This document shows, one piece after another, positions 24,464 to 31,533 of a DNA stretch of 32,231 nucleotides. The notes under the pieces were generated by a model that ran no database searches, had not been told where the DNA came from, and worked only from the letters and a program-made list of their open reading frames with translations. A program made the position numbers and the translations under genes. How positions within the stretch are numbered: position 1 is the first letter of the stretch; every line of letters starts with the position of its first letter. This DNA is from Desulfobulbaceae bacterium (lineage in GTDB: Bacteria; Desulfobacterota; Desulfobulbia; Desulfobulbales; Desulfobulbaceae): positions 1 to 32,231 of the forward strand of contig WFUT01000199.1 of NCBI GenBank assembly GCA_015484845.1. The letters run 5' to 3'.

Positions 24464-27331
24464 TCACTCTTTCCCGTTCCGGGCCGGGTAGGCGGCGCAG
24501 GATCCGCCCCGGGCCAGGAGCACGGTCATTTCCCGGGCCGTCATGGGCCTGGCCAGCAGGTAACCCTGGACCTTGTCGCACTCCTGGTCGAGCAGCTTGG
24601 CAAGCTGGGCCTGGGTCTCCACGCCTTCCGCCACCACGCTCAGGTCCAGGCCGTGGGCCATGGCGATCACCGCCCTGGTGATGGCCGCATCCTCGGGGGC
24701 CACCGCGATATCGCGGACAAAGAACCGGTCGATCTTCAGGTGATCGACCGGAAACTGTTTCAGGTAGCTGAGCGACGAGTAGCCGGTCCCGAAATCGTCG
24801 ATGGAGACCGTGCCCCCGAGTTCCCTGAATCCCTGGATGAAGCGGCTCGAGTGTTCCAGGTGCTGGATAATGGTGTTCTCGGTGATCTCCAGCTCCAGGT
24901 AACGGGCCGGCATGCCGGTCTCCTCCAGGACCTCGACGATCAGCTGCAGGTAATCCTTCTGCAGGAACTGTTTCGGCGAGATGTTGACCGCGATGGTGAT
25001 GGGCGGATAGCCCGCATCCTGCCACTCTTTTCCCTGCCGGCACGCCTTTTCCAGGACCCACCTGCCAATGGCCAGGATCAACTCGCTCTCTTCGGCAACA
25101 GGAATGAACCGGGCCGGCGAGATGTTCCTGCCGTCCCTGGTCTGCCAGCGCAGCAGCGCCTCGACCCCCATGAGGCGGCCGTCACTGAGGCGGACCTGGG
25201 GCTGGTAATAGAGCTCGAGCTCGTCGTTTTCCAGGGCCAGGCGCAGGTTTTTCTCCATATCCAGCCGTTCCTGCAGCCAGTCCTGCATCCTGCCGGTGAA
25301 GACCATGATATCGTTGCCGCTGGTCTCCTTGACATGGCTCATGGCGATATCGGCATTGCGCAGCAGTTCATCGACCCGGCAGCCGTGATCGGGGAACAGG
25401 CTGATCCCGATGGAGGCCGAGAGCCGGATGGCCTGGTCCTGGATGACAAAGGGTCTGCGCAGACCGGCGAGCAGCCCTTCCGCCACCTCCGTCACCTGCT
25501 CCCTCCTGACCAGTTCCTCCTGCAGAACAACGAACTCGTCCGCTCCCAGCCGACTGACGGTCATCTCCCGGCCGGCCACTGCCTGCAGCCGCGCCGCTGC
25601 CTCCTGCAGGAGCAGGTCGGCGCCGGCATGGCCCAGCATGTCGTTGGCCTTCTTGAATGAATCCAGGTCGATATGGTAGATCGCCACCCGCAGCCTGCGG
25701 CGGTCTGCCCGGCTGATGGCCTGGCCGAGGCGATCCTTGAGCAGGGCGCGGTTGGGCAGCCTTGTCAACGGGTCATGGGTGGCCTGAAAGGCGAGCCGCT
25801 CCGCCATGGAGCGCGTCTCGGTGAGATCGCTGATCCCGAGCACCACGCCGCTGTTCCGTTGCCGGGCCCGGATGGTGCCGGCGCTGACGTGGACGATGTA
25901 TTCCCGGCCGTCCCGGTTGGCCAGCCGGGCGTCCACCTGCACGGTCGCGGGCCGGTCCGCCTGCAGGCAGCGGTCGAGCAGCGGGCCCAGGTCCCGGCCG
26001 TGCCGTTCGTCACGCAGCTGCACCAGCTCTGCCAGCGGCCGGCCGAATGCCCTGTCACCCGTGCAGGCGGTCAGTTGTTCCGCCATGGGGTTCAGGTAGC
26101 GGACCCGCCCCTGCCGGTCGAGGCGGATTACGCCGTCGCCAATGGAATGGAGGGTCACCAGGGCCTGTTCCCGTTCCCGGGCCAGCGCGGCCACGGTCCA
26201 CTCCAGGCGGCGCCAGGTCCAGAGCAGGTACCCCAGCACCAGGCAGACCAGCAGGGCCACCGGCGGATACCAGAGGTGCAGCAGGCGCAGGAGCAGGGCA
26301 CTGGCAAGAAGGGCCAGGGCCAGGAACAGGATCACTGCCGCCAGGCTGGCCCTGGGCCGGAGCCGGGGGTAGAGGAGGAAGGAGAACAGGAGAAGGCAGC
26401 CGCCCAGCGCCAGTTGCAGGGGCAGGCCCAGGGGCAGGATGGCGTGGCCGGTGCGCAGGGTGTCGAGGATGTTGGCGTTCAGCTCCACGCCCGGCATGGG
26501 CACGCCATTGCCGGACACCGGGGTGGGCAGGCCGTCGCCCAGGCCCAGGGCGGTCATGCCGACCAGGACATAGGCATTGTTGAGCCGGCGGGTGTCAAAG
26601 GATGGATCGAGAAAATCGGCCACCGAGATGCGCCGGAAATGGCCGGGTGGGCCGGCGAAAGGAATCAGGACCTGGTAGTCGCGGACCCAGGCGCCGGCAG
26701 ATGTCCCCTCCGGAGCCGGGTTGCGCAGGCCGGGCAGGTTGTCGGCCGCGTCCGGGTTCTCGACCAGCAGCATGGCCAGGGCAAAGGCGGGCAGGTCGGG
26801 GCGGCCGGGACCGGCCATGAGGAAGGTGCGGCGGACGATGCCGTCCGGGTCCATCTCCACGTCCACGTGGCCGAGAGCTGCCGCGGCCCCGGCGAGCAGC
26901 GGCAGGGGCCGGGTAAGGCCGAGGGGCCCGCCGGTCCTGGATGCCTCGCTGACCAGGGGCAGGACCACGCGGCCGTTGTGGCGGATGGCCCGGGCCAGTA
27001 CCTGGTCGTCATCGCTTCCGGCCGGCGAGGGCTCGGCGAAGAGGATGTCCAGGCCGACGGCCCTCGTGGCGCAGCGGCTCAGCTTGTCCACCACCCGGGC
27101 ATGGATGCGGCGCGGCCAGGGCCAGCGGCCCAGCCGTGCCAGGCTGTGCTCGTCAATGGCCAGGATGACAATGTCCGCGGGCGCCGGCCGCCGGAAGAGG
27201 GGAGCGGCAAGATCATAGAGGGTGAAGTCCCAGCGCCGGACCAGGTGGCCGCTCGTGAGCAGGAGAAGCACAGCGGCCAGCAGCAGGCTGAAGAGCAGGG
27301 GATGGCCCCGGTATTTCTCCTGCTCGGCCAC
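24464..27331 (-). CDS. CHASE2-PAS-GGDEF-EAL cyclic-di-GMP enzyme
   Basis: A 955-residue membrane signalling protein. An N-terminal TM (11-27) is followed by an extracytoplasmic CHASE2 sensor (about 30-295; DIVILAIDEHSLARLGRWPWPR, NNAYVLVGMTA), three TM helices (305-375), a PAS domain (about 385-505) and GGDEF (about 510-680). The EAL domain lies at about 685-940. GGDEF is altered to GADEF (596-600) and no RxxD inhibitory site precedes it, so cyclase activity is doubtful. The EAL domain is intact (EALLRW at 724-729, ITENT, DDFGTGYSS at 845-853, K866, QGYLLARP), so it should degrade c-di-GMP. Start is GTG, 2 nt after the stop of the LysM-FecR gene, so the genes are coupled. Confidence 0.94.
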   Translation of the reverse strand: MAEQEKYRGHPLLFSLLLAAVLLLLTSGHLVRRWDFTLYDLAAPLFRRPAPADIVILAIDEHSLARLGRWPWPRRIHARVVDKLSRCATRAVGLDILFAEPSPAGSDDDQVLARAIRHNGRVVLPLVSEASRTGGPLGLTRPLPLLAGAAAALGHVDVEMDPDGIVRRTFLMAGPGRPDLPAFALAMLLVENPDAADNLPGLRNPAPEGTSAGAWVRDYQVLIPFAGPPGHFRRISVADFLDPSFDTRRLNNAYVLVGMTALGLGDGLPTPVSGNGVPMPGVELNANILDTLRTGHAILPLGLPLQLALGGCLLLFSFLLYPRLRPRASLAAVILFLALALLASALLLRLLHLWYPPVALLVCLVLGYLLWTWRRLEWTVAALAREREQALVTLHSIGDGVIRLDRQGRVRYLNPMAEQLTACTGDRAFGRPLAELVQLRDERHGRDLGPLLDRCLQADRPATVQVDARLANRDGREYIVHVSAGTIRARQRNSGVVLGISDLTETRSMAERLAFQATHDPLTRLPNRALLKDRLGQAISRADRRRLRVAIYHIDLDSFKKANDMLGHAGADLLLQEAAARLQAVAGREMTVSRLGADEFVVLQEELVRREQVTEVAEGLLAGLRRPFVIQDQAIRLSASIGISLFPDHGCRVDELLRNADIAMSHVKETSGNDIMVFTGRMQDWLQERLDMEKNLRLALENDELELYYQPQVRLSDGRLMGVEALLRWQTRDGRNISPARFIPVAEESELILAIGRWVLEKACRQGKEWQDAGYPPITIAVNISPKQFLQKDYLQLIVEVLEETGMPARYLELEITENTIIQHLEHSSRFIQGFRELGGTVSIDDFGTGYSSLSYLKQFPVDHLKIDRFFVRDIAVAPEDAAITRAVIAMAHGLDLSVVAEGVETQAQLAKLLDQECDKVQGYLLARPMTAREMTVLLARGGSCAAYPARNGKE

Positions 27332-27333
27332 GA

Positions 27334-28986
27334 CTAGAGAATGATGCCGAGGAAGAACAGCGGCCCGAGGATCAGGCCCCAGGGATTGGGCGGGGACGGA
27401 ACCCTCAGGTGCTGCGGACTGCTGAACGGGCCCTGGAAGTCATCGGGTTCGATGGTCGCCACCCGGATGTAGTAGTCGCCCGGCTTCAGGGAGGCCATTT
27501 TGAAGCTGGCCCGGTCGGTCTTCCTGTTGACGAGAATGTGGGTAAAGTCCGCATCGGTGGCGATCTGGATGCGGTAGCGCTGCTTCGGCCCCACGGCCTG
27601 CCAGCGGAAGACCATGTCCTTGTCGTCAAACCTGGCCTTGCCCATGTCCGGCGCCGGTTCCGGGATCCGGAAACTCATGACCATGCCCATGGGGCCGGGT
27701 TTTCCCTCTGCATCGCGGCCGGCGACCCGCCAGTAGTAGGTGCCGGGCGCCAGCCTGCCTGTGGCCCGCAGGGTCGTCTTGCCATAGGCCTGCAGGTTGA
27801 TGAGCGGGTTCTTGAATTTCTTGTTATCGGCCAGTTGGAAGAGGTAGCTCCTGGCCTGCTCGGGCGCTGACCAGAGAAAGGTGGGGCGCGGGTCGGTGAG
27901 CACGGCCCCGTCCCTGGGCCTGACCCGGATGGGCGGCAGGGGACGGGCGTTGAGGGTGCAGGCATGGTAGGCATCCAGGCCCTCCAGGCCGTTGCCGTCA
28001 ATGGCCCGCAAGCGCAGGATATAGTCGCCGTCGGCCAGTTGCGGCACTACTATCCGCGGCCGGTCGGAGACCGTGTCCGCCAGCAGGACGTTGAACTGCC
28101 GGTCCGTGGCCACCTGCAGCCGGTAGGCGGTGGCGCCCGGCACTGCCGGGAAGCGCAGCATGAAGGGTGACTCCTCCATGACCTTCGGCAGGGAGGAGAG
28201 GTCCGGGGGCGGCAGCAGCGGGATCGGCGGCCCGGGTTTTTCCTTCTTCCTGGTCAGGGCCCCGTACCGGGCCGGCACCACGCGGCTGGCCCGGCTGTTG
28301 GCCACCTGCACGGCGCCGCCGCTGACCTCGGTGCGCATGAGCTCGGTGTTGCAGCCGATCCGGTAGCTGGTGCCGCGCACCGCGGCCATGGCCGAGGGCG
28401 TGCGGATCTCGAAGCGGGAACCGGGCCCTTTCTTGGGCGTCACCTTGTTGTCGGTTCGGCCTTTCTTCAGGTGCAGCCGGGTGTCGGCCATGCCGGTGCC
28501 GCCATAGTCCATGAGCAGGTCCAGGGCCAGGACCGAGTCCTGTTCCAGGAGGACCCTGGAGTCGTCGGCAAAGCGGAGAGTGGCATTGCCGCCGGAACCG
28601 GTATGGACCTCGTCCCCTGCCCAGAGGGCCATGCCGGGCCGGGCCGGGACAGTGGCGCCGCTGCCGGCCCGCAGGACCGTCACTGCGCCGTGGACCGACT
28701 GCAGGGTGGCCATGACGGCGCCGGACTTGAGCCACTGCAGCCGGAAACGAAGCGTGCTGCCGGGGGCGATGCGGCGGGGGTCGCTGATCTGGTTGAGCTT
28801 CTTGAACTCCCGCCAGTAGCGCATGCTCCTGAGATACCGTTTGCCCACGTCCCAGGCATTGTCACCCGGCCGGACCGTGTAGAGCCAGAAGTCCTGGCCG
28901 AGGGCGGGCCCGGGCAGCAGGAGGAGCAGGCACAGCAGGGAGAGAAGAAGGTGTGCGGCAAACAGGTGGCGGTCATGCGGTCTCAT
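27334..28986 (-). CDS. LysM-FecR surface/periplasmic protein with repeat domains and C-terminal TM
   Basis: A 550-residue exported protein. A signal peptide (1-30, cleaved at ALG-QD) precedes a LysM peptidoglycan-binding domain (about 35-82; YTVRPGDNAWDVGKRYL). A FecR domain (about 98-230) has AGDEVHTGSGGNATLRFADDS and AAVRGTSYRI. Three Fn3-like beta repeats follow (about 270-345, 365-455 and 460-535; YYWRVAGRD and YYIRVATIEP are core strands). The last 15 residues are hydrophobic and may anchor it. FecR proteins beside CHASE2 sensors are a known pairing, so it may present a wall signal to the CHASE2 domain of the next gene. The ATG at 28986 precedes the signal peptide directly; the Shine-Dalgarno is weak. 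Confidence 0.88.
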   Translation of the reverse strand: MRPHDRHLFAAHLLLSLLCLLLLLPGPALGQDFWLYTVRPGDNAWDVGKRYLRSMRYWREFKKLNQISDPRRIAPGSTLRFRLQWLKSGAVMATLQSVHGAVTVLRAGSGATVPARPGMALWAGDEVHTGSGGNATLRFADDSRVLLEQDSVLALDLLMDYGGTGMADTRLHLKKGRTDNKVTPKKGPGSRFEIRTPSAMAAVRGTSYRIGCNTELMRTEVSGGAVQVANSRASRVVPARYGALTRKKEKPGPPIPLLPPPDLSSLPKVMEESPFMLRFPAVPGATAYRLQVATDRQFNVLLADTVSDRPRIVVPQLADGDYILRLRAIDGNGLEGLDAYHACTLNARPLPPIRVRPRDGAVLTDPRPTFLWSAPEQARSYLFQLADNKKFKNPLINLQAYGKTTLRATGRLAPGTYYWRVAGRDAEGKPGPMGMVMSFRIPEPAPDMGKARFDDKDMVFRWQAVGPKQRYRIQIATDADFTHILVNRKTDRASFKMASLKPGDYYIRVATIEPDDFQGPFSSPQHLRVPSPPNPWGLILGPLFFLGIIL

Positions 28987-29105: not shown

Positions 29106-31364
29106 CTACCATACCGCGCGCAATCCTTTCTGTTTCCGGACCTGGTCGATCCTGCGCTCCAGGTCCACCCGCCACTGGGCGTGGATCCTGGCCGCTGACG
29201 GCGCGATCAGCTCGGGCAGGCCGTAGACCAGCCGGTCCGCGGCGCGGCTTGCCTCGATGACCGCCTCGATGGAGCGGGCCCCGAACTTGTAGTCGGCCAG
29301 CAGCAGGCGCAGGAGCAGGCCCGAGGTCTTGCGGGCCGCCGAGCGCCAGTGGGTCTGCATCTGGTGGGCGATGATGAAGGCCCGCTTGAGCAGGATCCTG
29401 CGCAGTTCCTCGAGTTCCTCTTCCGAGGCCGAATCGCGCAGCAGGTGCTCCTGGATCTCGATGCCGTCGATGTCGAGCACCACCCGCAGGCGGCTCATGA
29501 AGTCCGGTATCTTGAGGGTCTTGGCCCGCTGCAGCTTTTCCGGGCTGTCCGGGGTCAGCAGGGCCTCCATGTCGGCCCAGCTCGCCTTGACGCCGCCGGC
29601 AAAGACGAAGATGGCCCGGCCGATGTGGTAGGGGATGCCGTGCACGTAGGTGACCCCGTCCTGCATGGAGGGGAGAAAGTAGCGCAGGTAGCCGAACTCC
29701 TGGTCATCGTAACGGCAGTCGAACTCGTCCCAGAAGGCGATGGGAACCTTGCCCTGGGCCACCGAGGCCCGGACCGGGTCGATGGCGGAGTTGATCTCGT
29801 CGGGGCTGGCGAACTGGGTCAGGTTGAATTCAAAGAAATCGAACGGGCTGCCCTCGAAGTTCCTGGCAATCACGCCGGCCACCTGCTTGACGGCAAAGGA
29901 CTTGCCGGAGCCGGGCGGGCCGAAGACGCCGATGCACAGGGGCCTGAGTACCTGGGTCTTGGAGACGTAGGACTCCATCACGTTGTGCAGGGTGATGACC
30001 GGGTCGATCTCGGCCGGATCGGTGGTGCGCAGGTGGCCGAGCTGGAAGATGGGCAGCTCGGCAAAGCCCCGGCCCCGGTTGACCTCTTCCTTGAGATGGT
30101 GGAGGACCGAGACGATCACGTCCAGGTAGTCAAACGGCGGCGCCTCGTAGGGAGCCGCCGACACGCCCCGCGCCGGCCGCCGGAAAAAGGAGCGCAGGGC
30201 CTTTTTCTTGCCCTCGTTCCAGACCTGGCTGGCCACCAGGTCGAGGGTGCTGTCGAAGTCGGCGGAAAAGGCCGGCAGCTCGATGAAGGAGGGATCCGGC
30301 GTGGTGTTGATGAACGAGCAGGGCGAGCCGTCGGGAAAGGTGGCCGAGAGATCGAGGTTGGGAAACTCCAGGCCGTCGTTGAAATAATAGCCGTGCTCGT
30401 AGAGGATGTGCCAGTTGAGCAGGACCTGCTTGGAGAAGTCGAAGATGTAGTTGCGGCAGAACTCGAAGCCGCCGAAGCGCATGGCATCCATGGTCAGCAT
30501 GGAGGTGACCATGGTGTCGTAGCAGGGGACCGAGCCCCGCTGCCGGGGGGTGGATTTCTCCGGCAGGTGATTCTTGCGATAGCGGAAAAAGGTGCCTTCC
30601 GGACCGACATAGAGGATGCCGTGCGGGAACATCTCCACCACTATATGACAGCGAAAACGGTTTCTTTCCCGGTCCCACAGGCCGACCTCCGGCGTGCGCA
30701 GGGCACGCAGGCTCATGGCGACGATGGTCTCCCAGTTGACCGAGCTGTCCATCTCCATGCGGGTGGTCTCCAGGTCGGAGAGGCGGCAGAACAGGGTGAA
30801 CCGGTCTCCGAGCCTGTCGGCCCACTGCTGCCAGTGGGCCACCGAGATGCCCATGGCGATGCACCAGAAGCCGGGGTTCAGGTCGGCCAGGTCGTCGCAG
30901 ACCCGGGGCGGGACCCCGGAGTCGTCGATGATGACGATGCCGGAGTTGCCCCGCATCACCTCCAGGTTGCCGTTGTCGATGACCAGGGGATCGGCCTCGG
31001 AACCACGGCCCTCGGAGGGCAGGATCTGGTTGACCATGAACCAGCCGTGATCCGGCTTTTCCACGGCCGCGCTCTTACGCTTGCGGAAGATCTGGTAGAC
31101 CTGCTTCTCGCTGCCATAGGCCATGGAGTTGATCCGCGGCGTCAGTTCCGAGCTGGCCAGGTAGATGGAGAGCCAGGTCAGGCACTGCTCCAGGCGGCCG
31201 TTTTCAATGGAGACCCGCCCGGCCAGCAGGTCGATGGCATCGCCCGGATTGTAGCCATAGGCGGGCAGGCTGCCCTCCTCGAGCAGGCTGACCTCCTTGA
31301 TGGGCAGGTTGGTGATCTTGACGTTGGAGCCGAGCAGCAGGATCTTGGGCGATGTCTGTTCCAT
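29106..31364 (-). CDS. AAA+ ATPase with a large N-terminal region of unknown type
   Basis: A 752-residue protein. Residues 475-720 form a AAA+ domain with Walker A GPPGSGKS (482-489), Walker B PIAFWDEFD (541-549), a sensor-1-like FVFAGG (586-591), an arginine-bearing PDFMSRLRVVLDID (620-633) and a helical lid. The first about 430 residues have no motif I can name. They look soluble and mixed alpha/beta, with strand-like SGIVIIDDSG (141-150), FWCIAMGIS (166-174) and FTLFCRLSDL (189-198), plus a basic linker (385-400). It has no signal peptide or TM segment. It follows cydB and a 30-codon gene, behind a GC-rich hairpin. No Shine-Dalgarno is seen. It may be a remodelling ATPase or a nucleotide-gated defence or stress protein; function is unknown. 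Confidence 0.85.
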   Translation of the reverse strand: MEQTSPKILLLGSNVKITNLPIKEVSLLEEGSLPAYGYNPGDAIDLLAGRVSIENGRLEQCLTWLSIYLASSELTPRINSMAYGSEKQVYQIFRKRKSAAVEKPDHGWFMVNQILPSEGRGSEADPLVIDNGNLEVMRGNSGIVIIDDSGVPPRVCDDLADLNPGFWCIAMGISVAHWQQWADRLGDRFTLFCRLSDLETTRMEMDSSVNWETIVAMSLRALRTPEVGLWDRERNRFRCHIVVEMFPHGILYVGPEGTFFRYRKNHLPEKSTPRQRGSVPCYDTMVTSMLTMDAMRFGGFEFCRNYIFDFSKQVLLNWHILYEHGYYFNDGLEFPNLDLSATFPDGSPCSFINTTPDPSFIELPAFSADFDSTLDLVASQVWNEGKKKALRSFFRRPARGVSAAPYEAPPFDYLDVIVSVLHHLKEEVNRGRGFAELPIFQLGHLRTTDPAEIDPVITLHNVMESYVSKTQVLRPLCIGVFGPPGSGKSFAVKQVAGVIARNFEGSPFDFFEFNLTQFASPDEINSAIDPVRASVAQGKVPIAFWDEFDCRYDDQEFGYLRYFLPSMQDGVTYVHGIPYHIGRAIFVFAGGVKASWADMEALLTPDSPEKLQRAKTLKIPDFMSRLRVVLDIDGIEIQEHLLRDSASEEELEELRRILLKRAFIIAHQMQTHWRSAARKTSGLLLRLLLADYKFGARSIEAVIEASRAADRLVYGLPELIAPSAARIHAQWRVDLERRIDQVRKQKGLRAVW

Positions 31365-31388: not shown

Positions 31389-31423
31389 GGGCGGCCGGGG
31401 AAAAGGAGAAGACCCGGCCGCCC
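31389..31423 (-). terminator. GC-rich hairpin between the 30-codon gene and the AAA+ gene
   Basis: A perfect 11-bp stem (GGGCGGCCGGG at 31389-31399 with CCCGGCCGCCC at 31413-31423) closes a 13-nt pyrimidine-rich loop on the minus strand. It is followed by GCTTTCCTTCC rather than a clean T-run. It likely acts as a leaky terminator that lowers transcription into the AAA+ gene. Confidence 0.5.
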
Positions 31424-31440: not shown

Positions 31441-31533
31441 TTACAACAGGTTCAGCTTGTCAAGGGCATAGACGGCGCCGCGGTAGGATACAACGATCAG
31501 TGCCACCCAGCAGATAAGCAGTACGGTACTCAT
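31441..31533 (-). CDS. 30-residue single-TM peptide, candidate bd-oxidase small subunit
   Basis: MSTVLLICWVALIVVSYRGAVYALDKLNLL in outline: one membrane helix (about 3-16), then a short SYRG turn and a polar/amphipathic tail. AAGGAG lies 7 nt before the ATG, a good ribosome site for such a short gene. It is 77 nt downstream of cydB on the same strand. Small single-TM subunits (CydX in proteobacteria, CydS in Firmicutes) are encoded at this place and stabilise the heme site of cytochrome bd. Sequence identity to E. coli CydX is not obvious, so the role rests on size, topology and position. Confidence 0.65.
   Translation of the reverse strand: MSTVLLICWVALIVVSYRGAVYALDKLNLL

Follow-up and report, generated by a model that had tools for sequence, protein, structure and literature searches.

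Gene content of the locus

The analyzed window, a 32,231-nucleotide stretch of a Desulfobulbaceae genome (contig WFUT01000199.1), ends within a cyd terminal oxidase operon. The window is joined to another contig, C31, by an exact 66-bp overlap, and C31 carries the remaining part of cydB, along with cydA and the genes for a DUF4492 protein and an Rrf2 regulator. The gene order in the window genome is Rrf2, DUF4492, cydA and cydB; these are followed by a membrane peptide of 30 aa, then a hairpin, and then the gene for an AAA+ ATPase (Table 1). The ATPase ORF begins with an ATG at position 31364 and ends with a stop codon at 29106-29108 on the minus strand, spanning 752 codons; in the encoded protein, a kinase-fold half precedes the AAA+ module. 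The ORF, its Walker A and B motifs, and the adjacent cydB, membrane peptide and strong hairpin had all been recognized in a sequence-only reading of this DNA and are upheld here, with the strand added.

Table 1. Features of the cyd-linked AAA+ ATPase locus (window coordinates)
Feature	Position	Strand	Evidence
cydB, 3' part, cut at the contig end; remainder on contig C31	31611..32231	-	PF02322, 8.9e-16; 66-bp overlap
Single-pass membrane peptide (30 aa) behind cydB, CydX-like candidate	31441..31533	-	conserved over 16 cyd-linked loci that were read, usually as 30 aa
GC-rich hairpin separating the AAA gene from the cyd operon; a terminator or an attenuator	31389..31423	-	-27 kcal/mol, z -3.4
AAA+ ATPase gene, 752 aa	29106..31364	-	ORF, orthologs, dN/dS 0.086
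Ribokinase (PfkB)-fold domain, residues 1-372, with CYDT (281-284) for GAGD	30249..31364	-	AF2, Foldseek, VIA, profile match to the N-domains of RyR-AAA proteins
AAA+ module and C-terminal helical part, residues 413-752	29109..30128	-	Pfam PF00004, conservation; low-confidence model
Walker A, GPPGSGKS, residues 482-489	29898..29921	-	ORF translation, ortholog conservation
Walker B, PIAFWDEFD, residues 541-549	29718..29744	-	ORF translation, ortholog conservation
Candidate arginine finger R625 (PDFMSR)	29490..29492	-	invariant in 24 orthologs and RyR-AAA relatives
Candidate sensor-2 arginine R697 (GARS)	29274..29276	-	invariant in 24 orthologs

Strong hairpins that differ in sequence are found in most of the cyd-linked loci. 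In the window, the hairpin ends about 25 bases ahead of the AAA start codon, which leaves scant space for a separate promoter, so that attenuated read-through from the cyd operon is predicted as the likely mode of expression. The 30-aa peptide, which has no Pfam match, resembles a small subunit of the CydX type that has not been described before. Peptides with the motif ..SY[RK]..A..LDK..LL follow cydB or cydA in the cyd-linked loci L046-L122.

Two further features of the surroundings were observed. On contig C31, Rrf2 is preceded by another cydB-like gene (L123, 3062-4261), which places two copies of cydB around a single cydA, and an upstream cydB ahead of Rrf2 recurs in several Desulfobulbaceae. 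Downstream of the AAA gene, the same strand encodes LysM/FecR-like and CHASE2-like GGDEF-EAL proteins (24464-28960; recognized by eye), and L046 and L093 have this pair in the vicinity of the AAA gene as well.

Conservation and distribution of the AAA+ gene

Most residues of the Walker motifs are invariant across 24 orthologs, among them the key residues within GPPGSGKS (482-489) and FWDEFD (544-549). As for the sensor and arginine motifs, R625 and R697 are invariant, sensor 1 is atypical (IFVFAGG), and the structural model of this half is too poor for these sites to be placed in it. Pfam yields only a weak AAA match (PF00004, 21.9 bits against a cut-off of 21.2), while bpMoxR scores 18.3 bits where its cut-off is 27, and there is no NCBIfam match to the protein. 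An assignment to an AAA clade from structure was attempted and dropped: a second model reached a pLDDT of 56, the best Foldseek match had an E of 1.1e-3, and the best VIA Z was 6.4, to unrelated folds.

The gene is under purifying selection, with a dN/dS of 0.086 against the nearest ortholog (L046), 0.12 for the N-terminal half and 0.06 for the AAA half. It is present in a single copy in the window genome, and orthologs with 58-94% identity over the full length, some of them fragments, were detected in 35 of the 57 relatives. A phylum-wide sample contained the gene in 25 of 297 genomes, a count that includes distant relatives. In a scan of named genomes, 52 loci came up, spread over Desulfobulbaceae, cable bacteria (Electronema and Electrothrix), Thermodesulfobacteriaceae and 'Deltaproteobacteria'. 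In the tree of the AAA+ proteins, inheritance is mostly family-wise and largely vertical, and the oxidase-linked members fall within Desulfobulbales, with a few outside.

Duplication and decay were both encountered. One cable bacterium, with a closed, Electrothrix-like genome of 4.85 Mb (G033), carries three near-identical copies at separate sites (L118, L119, L120). In G052, which lacks CydA and COX1, only the C-terminal half of the gene is left, behind a transposase (L126), and in G022, about 30 codons persist next to cydA (L125).

The N-terminal half

Residues 1-430 match nothing in Pfam or NCBIfam, and the sequence-only reading could not relate them to any domain. This no longer holds for residues 1-370, which have the ribokinase (PfkB) fold in a structural model. 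This AlphaFold (AF2) model, built from the 24 orthologs, reaches mean pLDDT values of about 70-93 for the bulk of residues 1-330, leaving a conserved loop (24-47) unresolved and the AAA half poor. A Foldseek search of the PDB with the N-terminal half retrieved 77 chains at E <1e-3; among the matches listed, all are PfkB/ribokinase-type kinases, and VIA-align superimposed this half on tagatose-6-phosphate kinase with Z 16.8 and an rmsd of 3.9 over 262 residues. Direct hhalign comparison of the N-terminal domain with 20 PfkB proteins produced no signal (E 0.25), so that the assignment is carried by the fold evidence; the N-terminal domains of the RyR domain-bearing relatives discussed below match PfkB with an E of 0.0015.

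This fold raises the question of catalysis. The protein could be an active small-molecule kinase controlled by the AAA+ ring, and the invariant D283 is, in profile alignments, no more than one residue away from where the GAGD motif has its catalytic aspartate, so that it may stand in for the catalytic base. However, the GAGD anion hole is not conserved (the equivalent stretch in the profile alignment reads CYDT, 281-284), the substrate aspartate of the GDxxxD motif, which is kept in the RyR relatives, has been lost (GSNVKI in its place), and Pfam gives no PfkB match (PF00294) in the protein. We therefore consider an active kinase highly improbable; the N-terminal half has the fold of a kinase and probably does not function as one.

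Recurrent association with terminal oxidases

Within its own family, the AAA gene adjoins a canonical cydA in 13 genomes in addition to the window genome, where the contig break intervenes, and the window arrangement is common to many genera of this family, with cydB sometimes shifted upstream. Beyond it, cydA is adjacent in two genera of family f12 and in families f4 and f15. The AAA gene is located downstream of cydAB in f1 and f12, and upstream, a few hundred bases ahead of cydA, in f4 and f15. In two genera of f6 (G053 and G040), it precedes ccoNOP, which encode a cbb3 oxidase; upstream of it, G053 carries an overlapping Rrf2 gene together with a gene for hemerythrin. The linkage to the oxidase is thus not peculiar to the window genome, which would have told against the sequence-only reading; it extends over several families, where the AAA gene is found on one or the other flank of cydAB or with cbb3.

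Other neighbors recur as well. In f11, Rrf2 lies immediately upstream of the AAA gene and a gene for a CoA-disulfide-reductase/NADH-oxidase-like protein lies downstream; Rrf2 is immediately upstream in L110, L114 and L117, and a peroxiredoxin gene in L109. In four loci without the AAA gene (L181, L182, L183 and L185), a peroxiredoxin gene follows cydB, the place that the AAA gene occupies elsewhere.

A rough calculation puts the chance of the AAA gene lying so near an oxidase gene at about 0.4% per genome. The link was observed in 5 of 8 families, giving P ~8e-11 if the families are independent and 5e-4 when the count is reduced to two events. The link to terminal oxidases is real and recurrent over several families, and a conserved, unnamed ATPase comes to lie repeatedly near two unrelated terminal oxidases. 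We conclude that the AAA+ gene represents a new branch, as yet unnamed, of a kinase-fold AAA+ superfamily, and that this branch is recurrently tied to terminal oxidases; in the literature searched, no paper describes the family or the joining of a kinase fold to an AAA module. Given its repeated placement by genes for oxygen-reducing enzymes, the protein probably helps these anaerobic sulfur bacteria to cope with oxygen.

Limits of the oxidase association

Across genomes, the presence of the gene does not correlate with that of an oxidase: canonical CydA or COX1 was detected in 27 of 35 genomes with the gene and in 16 of 22 without it (p 0.76). The cyd operon is intact in most relatives that lack the AAA gene and, conversely, some genomes contain the gene and have no detectable canonical CydA or COX1. 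The gene is located away from oxidase operons in Desulfurivibrio-like genomes and in cable bacteria, which, according to published work, reduce oxygen and for the most part have no canonical CydA. Outside Desulfobulbales, most lineages show no linkage either; there, the neighbors are mixed and include genes for PAP2, RACo, [NiFe] hydrogenase and MobB (the latter two recognized by eye). Together, the missing correlation, the intact cyd operons without the gene, the unlinked copies in cable bacteria and the mixed neighbors speak against the protein being a subunit dedicated to the oxidase or a factor on which its assembly strictly depends. These observations fit a broader accessory role in respiration and oxygen handling, in which the AAA+ protein is not an obligate part of the oxidase.

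The same evidence bears on the possibility that the protein is a chaperone dedicated to the maturation of respiratory metalloenzymes, similar to NorQ or RavA, whose ring would open the oxidase, or a hydrogenase, for insertion of haem or metal. The adjacency to both cydAB and ccoNOP is in line with such a role, as are the loci outside Desulfobulbales in which [NiFe] hydrogenase genes start 7 bp after the AAA gene (L135) or other hydrogenase genes lie nearby (L140), or MobB abuts it (L137). There are also precedents: NorQD inserts Fe into a NO reductase of the haem-copper family, and RavA is tied to Nuo, Frd and Cyo (PMC9976466, PMC13036017, PMC3893208, PMC10585395). Against this role, most of the relatives that lack the gene still have the same cyd operon, and some genomes carry the gene but no canonical CydA or COX1; furthermore, cyd and cbb3 oxidases have little beyond haem b in common, no vWA partner gene was seen adjoining the AAA gene, and no Pfam MoxR match exceeds the cut-off. 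We regard this explanation as rather unlikely. An oxidase assembly factor had been among the functions suggested from the sequence; of that suggestion, the adjacency to the oxidase stands, recurring in other genomes, but the frequent absence of the gene next to cyd, the unrelated cbb3 oxidase as a neighbor and the genomes with no detectable canonical CydA or COX1 weaken it.

Beyond the oxidase-linked loci, in separate lineages (L135, L137, L140, L086, L067 and L082), the AAA gene abuts genes for [NiFe] hydrogenase, MobB or RACo-type activators of corrinoid proteins. Several hosts of the gene, Dissulfurimicrobium among them, disproportionate sulfur, and a link to this metabolism was considered and set aside, as the YedE-family loci of the window genome show no obvious YTD cluster.

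Proposed function

The explanation that we tentatively favor, at somewhat less than an even chance, is that the protein is an AAA+ ATPase with an accessory, remodelling role in the oxygen and respiration response of Desulfobulbales and some other Thermodesulfobacteriota, with the kinase-fold domain serving as a sensor or adaptor. Rrf2 regulators often sense the redox state via an FeS cluster, as established for several members of the family, and AAA+ rings are established as a class of ATP-powered machines that remodel client proteins. Under the proposed scheme, an Rrf2 regulator of the FeS type would turn on the terminal oxidase operon upon exposure to oxygen, and the AAA gene product would be made with this operon or beside it, the hairpin probably keeping it less abundant than CydAB. 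The AAA+ half would assemble into an ATP-driven ring. Because the N-terminal fold is a small-molecule-binding one, we propose that this half, having lost GAGD, binds a metabolite or holds a client protein and thereby gates the motor. The ring would then remodel or repair respiratory or redox enzymes exposed to oxygen.

Among the functions put forward in the sequence-only reading, an oxygen or redox stress protein fits best. The orthologs in oxygen-using cable bacteria count in favor of the oxygen response. Against the accessory role stand the lack of correlation between the gene and oxidases, the lineages in which the two are unlinked, the poorly folded AAA half in the model, and the presence of the gene in Dissulfurimicrobium, an obligate anaerobe that does not grow with oxygen.

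A broader and doubtful extension of the accessory role, to which we assign a low probability, would see the protein as a respiratory-protection machine, that is, an AAA+ ring gated by a pseudo-sugar-kinase sensor, recruited from an ATPase superfamily whose other members occur in RyR/SLOG/TIR conflict loci, and servicing terminal oxidases and other redox enzymes in anaerobes that meet oxygen, cable bacteria included. The handling and use of oxygen by anaerobic sulfur bacteria and cable bacteria are incompletely known, and the AAA+ gene offers a concrete candidate.

Comparison with known systems

The next relatives of the window protein by sequence are the RyR-AAA proteins, annotated as 'RyR domain-containing protein' (for example, WP_264051538.1 of Methylobacterium sp. 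FF17; L036-L040). The alignment covers residues 140-715 (hhalign probability 100, E 1.5e-62), that is, the second half of the kinase-fold domain and the AAA module, and the AAA+ cores have the motifs DEFD, PDFxSR and GxRS in common. In contrast to the window protein, these relatives keep the N-terminal GDxxxD...GG and end in a single RyR domain or a pair of them; PF02026 was detected in 5 of the 7 relatives scanned and is missing from the window protein. Their genes, unlike those of the window family, adjoin SLOG/SLATT, TIR/ThsB, NB-ARC, DUF4062 and HSP70 genes, as in bacterial conflict systems. Specifically, in L128-L132 and L099, a RyR-AAA protein with a sugar-kinase-like N-terminus is accompanied by a SLOG-like/SLATT two-domain protein, TIR/ThsB, NB-ARC-WD40, DUF4062 or HSP70. 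The homology thus ties a respiration-linked protein to an ATPase superfamily that otherwise comes from conflict loci.

The extent of this homology and the company kept by the relatives would be compatible with an anti-phage or cell-suicide ATPase that sits beside cyd by chance, and a defence-type ATPase had indeed been envisaged for this locus. However, the window protein has no RyR domain, no SLOG, TIR or SLATT genes were seen in the neighborhoods of its family that were read, its sequence is strongly conserved and largely vertically inherited, and its oxidase neighbors recur. Phage records and viral contigs yielded no ortholog and plasmids no full-length match, and the sole PADLOC match, to mad8, covers 36 residues of the P-loop (E 0.0098). 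A conflict function is improbable on these grounds, and the defence reading is unsupported, even though the RyR-bearing relatives occur in conflict-type loci. One distant relative of the RyR-AAA proteins is encoded on a contig filed as viral (L173, IMGVR_UViG_3300048597_000653); it lies by relaxase-, coupling-protein- and ParB-like genes, recognized by eye, and the contig is probably a plasmid. The hypothetical protein WP_331746307.1 of Streptomyces sp. NBC_01001 also combines the kinase fold with AAA and lacks RyR, with 25% identity over residues 143-728, but is encoded on a linear actinomycete plasmid, with no oxidase neighbor.

Kinases of the PfkB/ribokinase family (2jg1, 1rkd and the PUKI structure 7c1z) resemble residues 2-370 in fold, with Z of 14-17 and about 260 residues aligned. 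They differ in that identity is only about 4-14%, and the window protein lacks GAGD and the substrate aspartate, is fused to an AAA+ module and has no Pfam match to the family.

The MoxR ATPases NorQ, RavA and CbbQ are, like the window protein, AAA+ proteins linked to genes for respiratory enzymes or metalloenzymes (PMC9976466, PMC3893208). The window protein departs from them in its N-terminal kinase fold, its bpMoxR score and the apparent lack of a vWA partner, none being recognized next to the orthologs in neighborhoods that were partly read by eye. NorQ and RavA demonstrate that AAA+ proteins are able to service respiratory enzymes (PMC9976466, PMC3893208), and by analogy, the window protein may act in a similar way.
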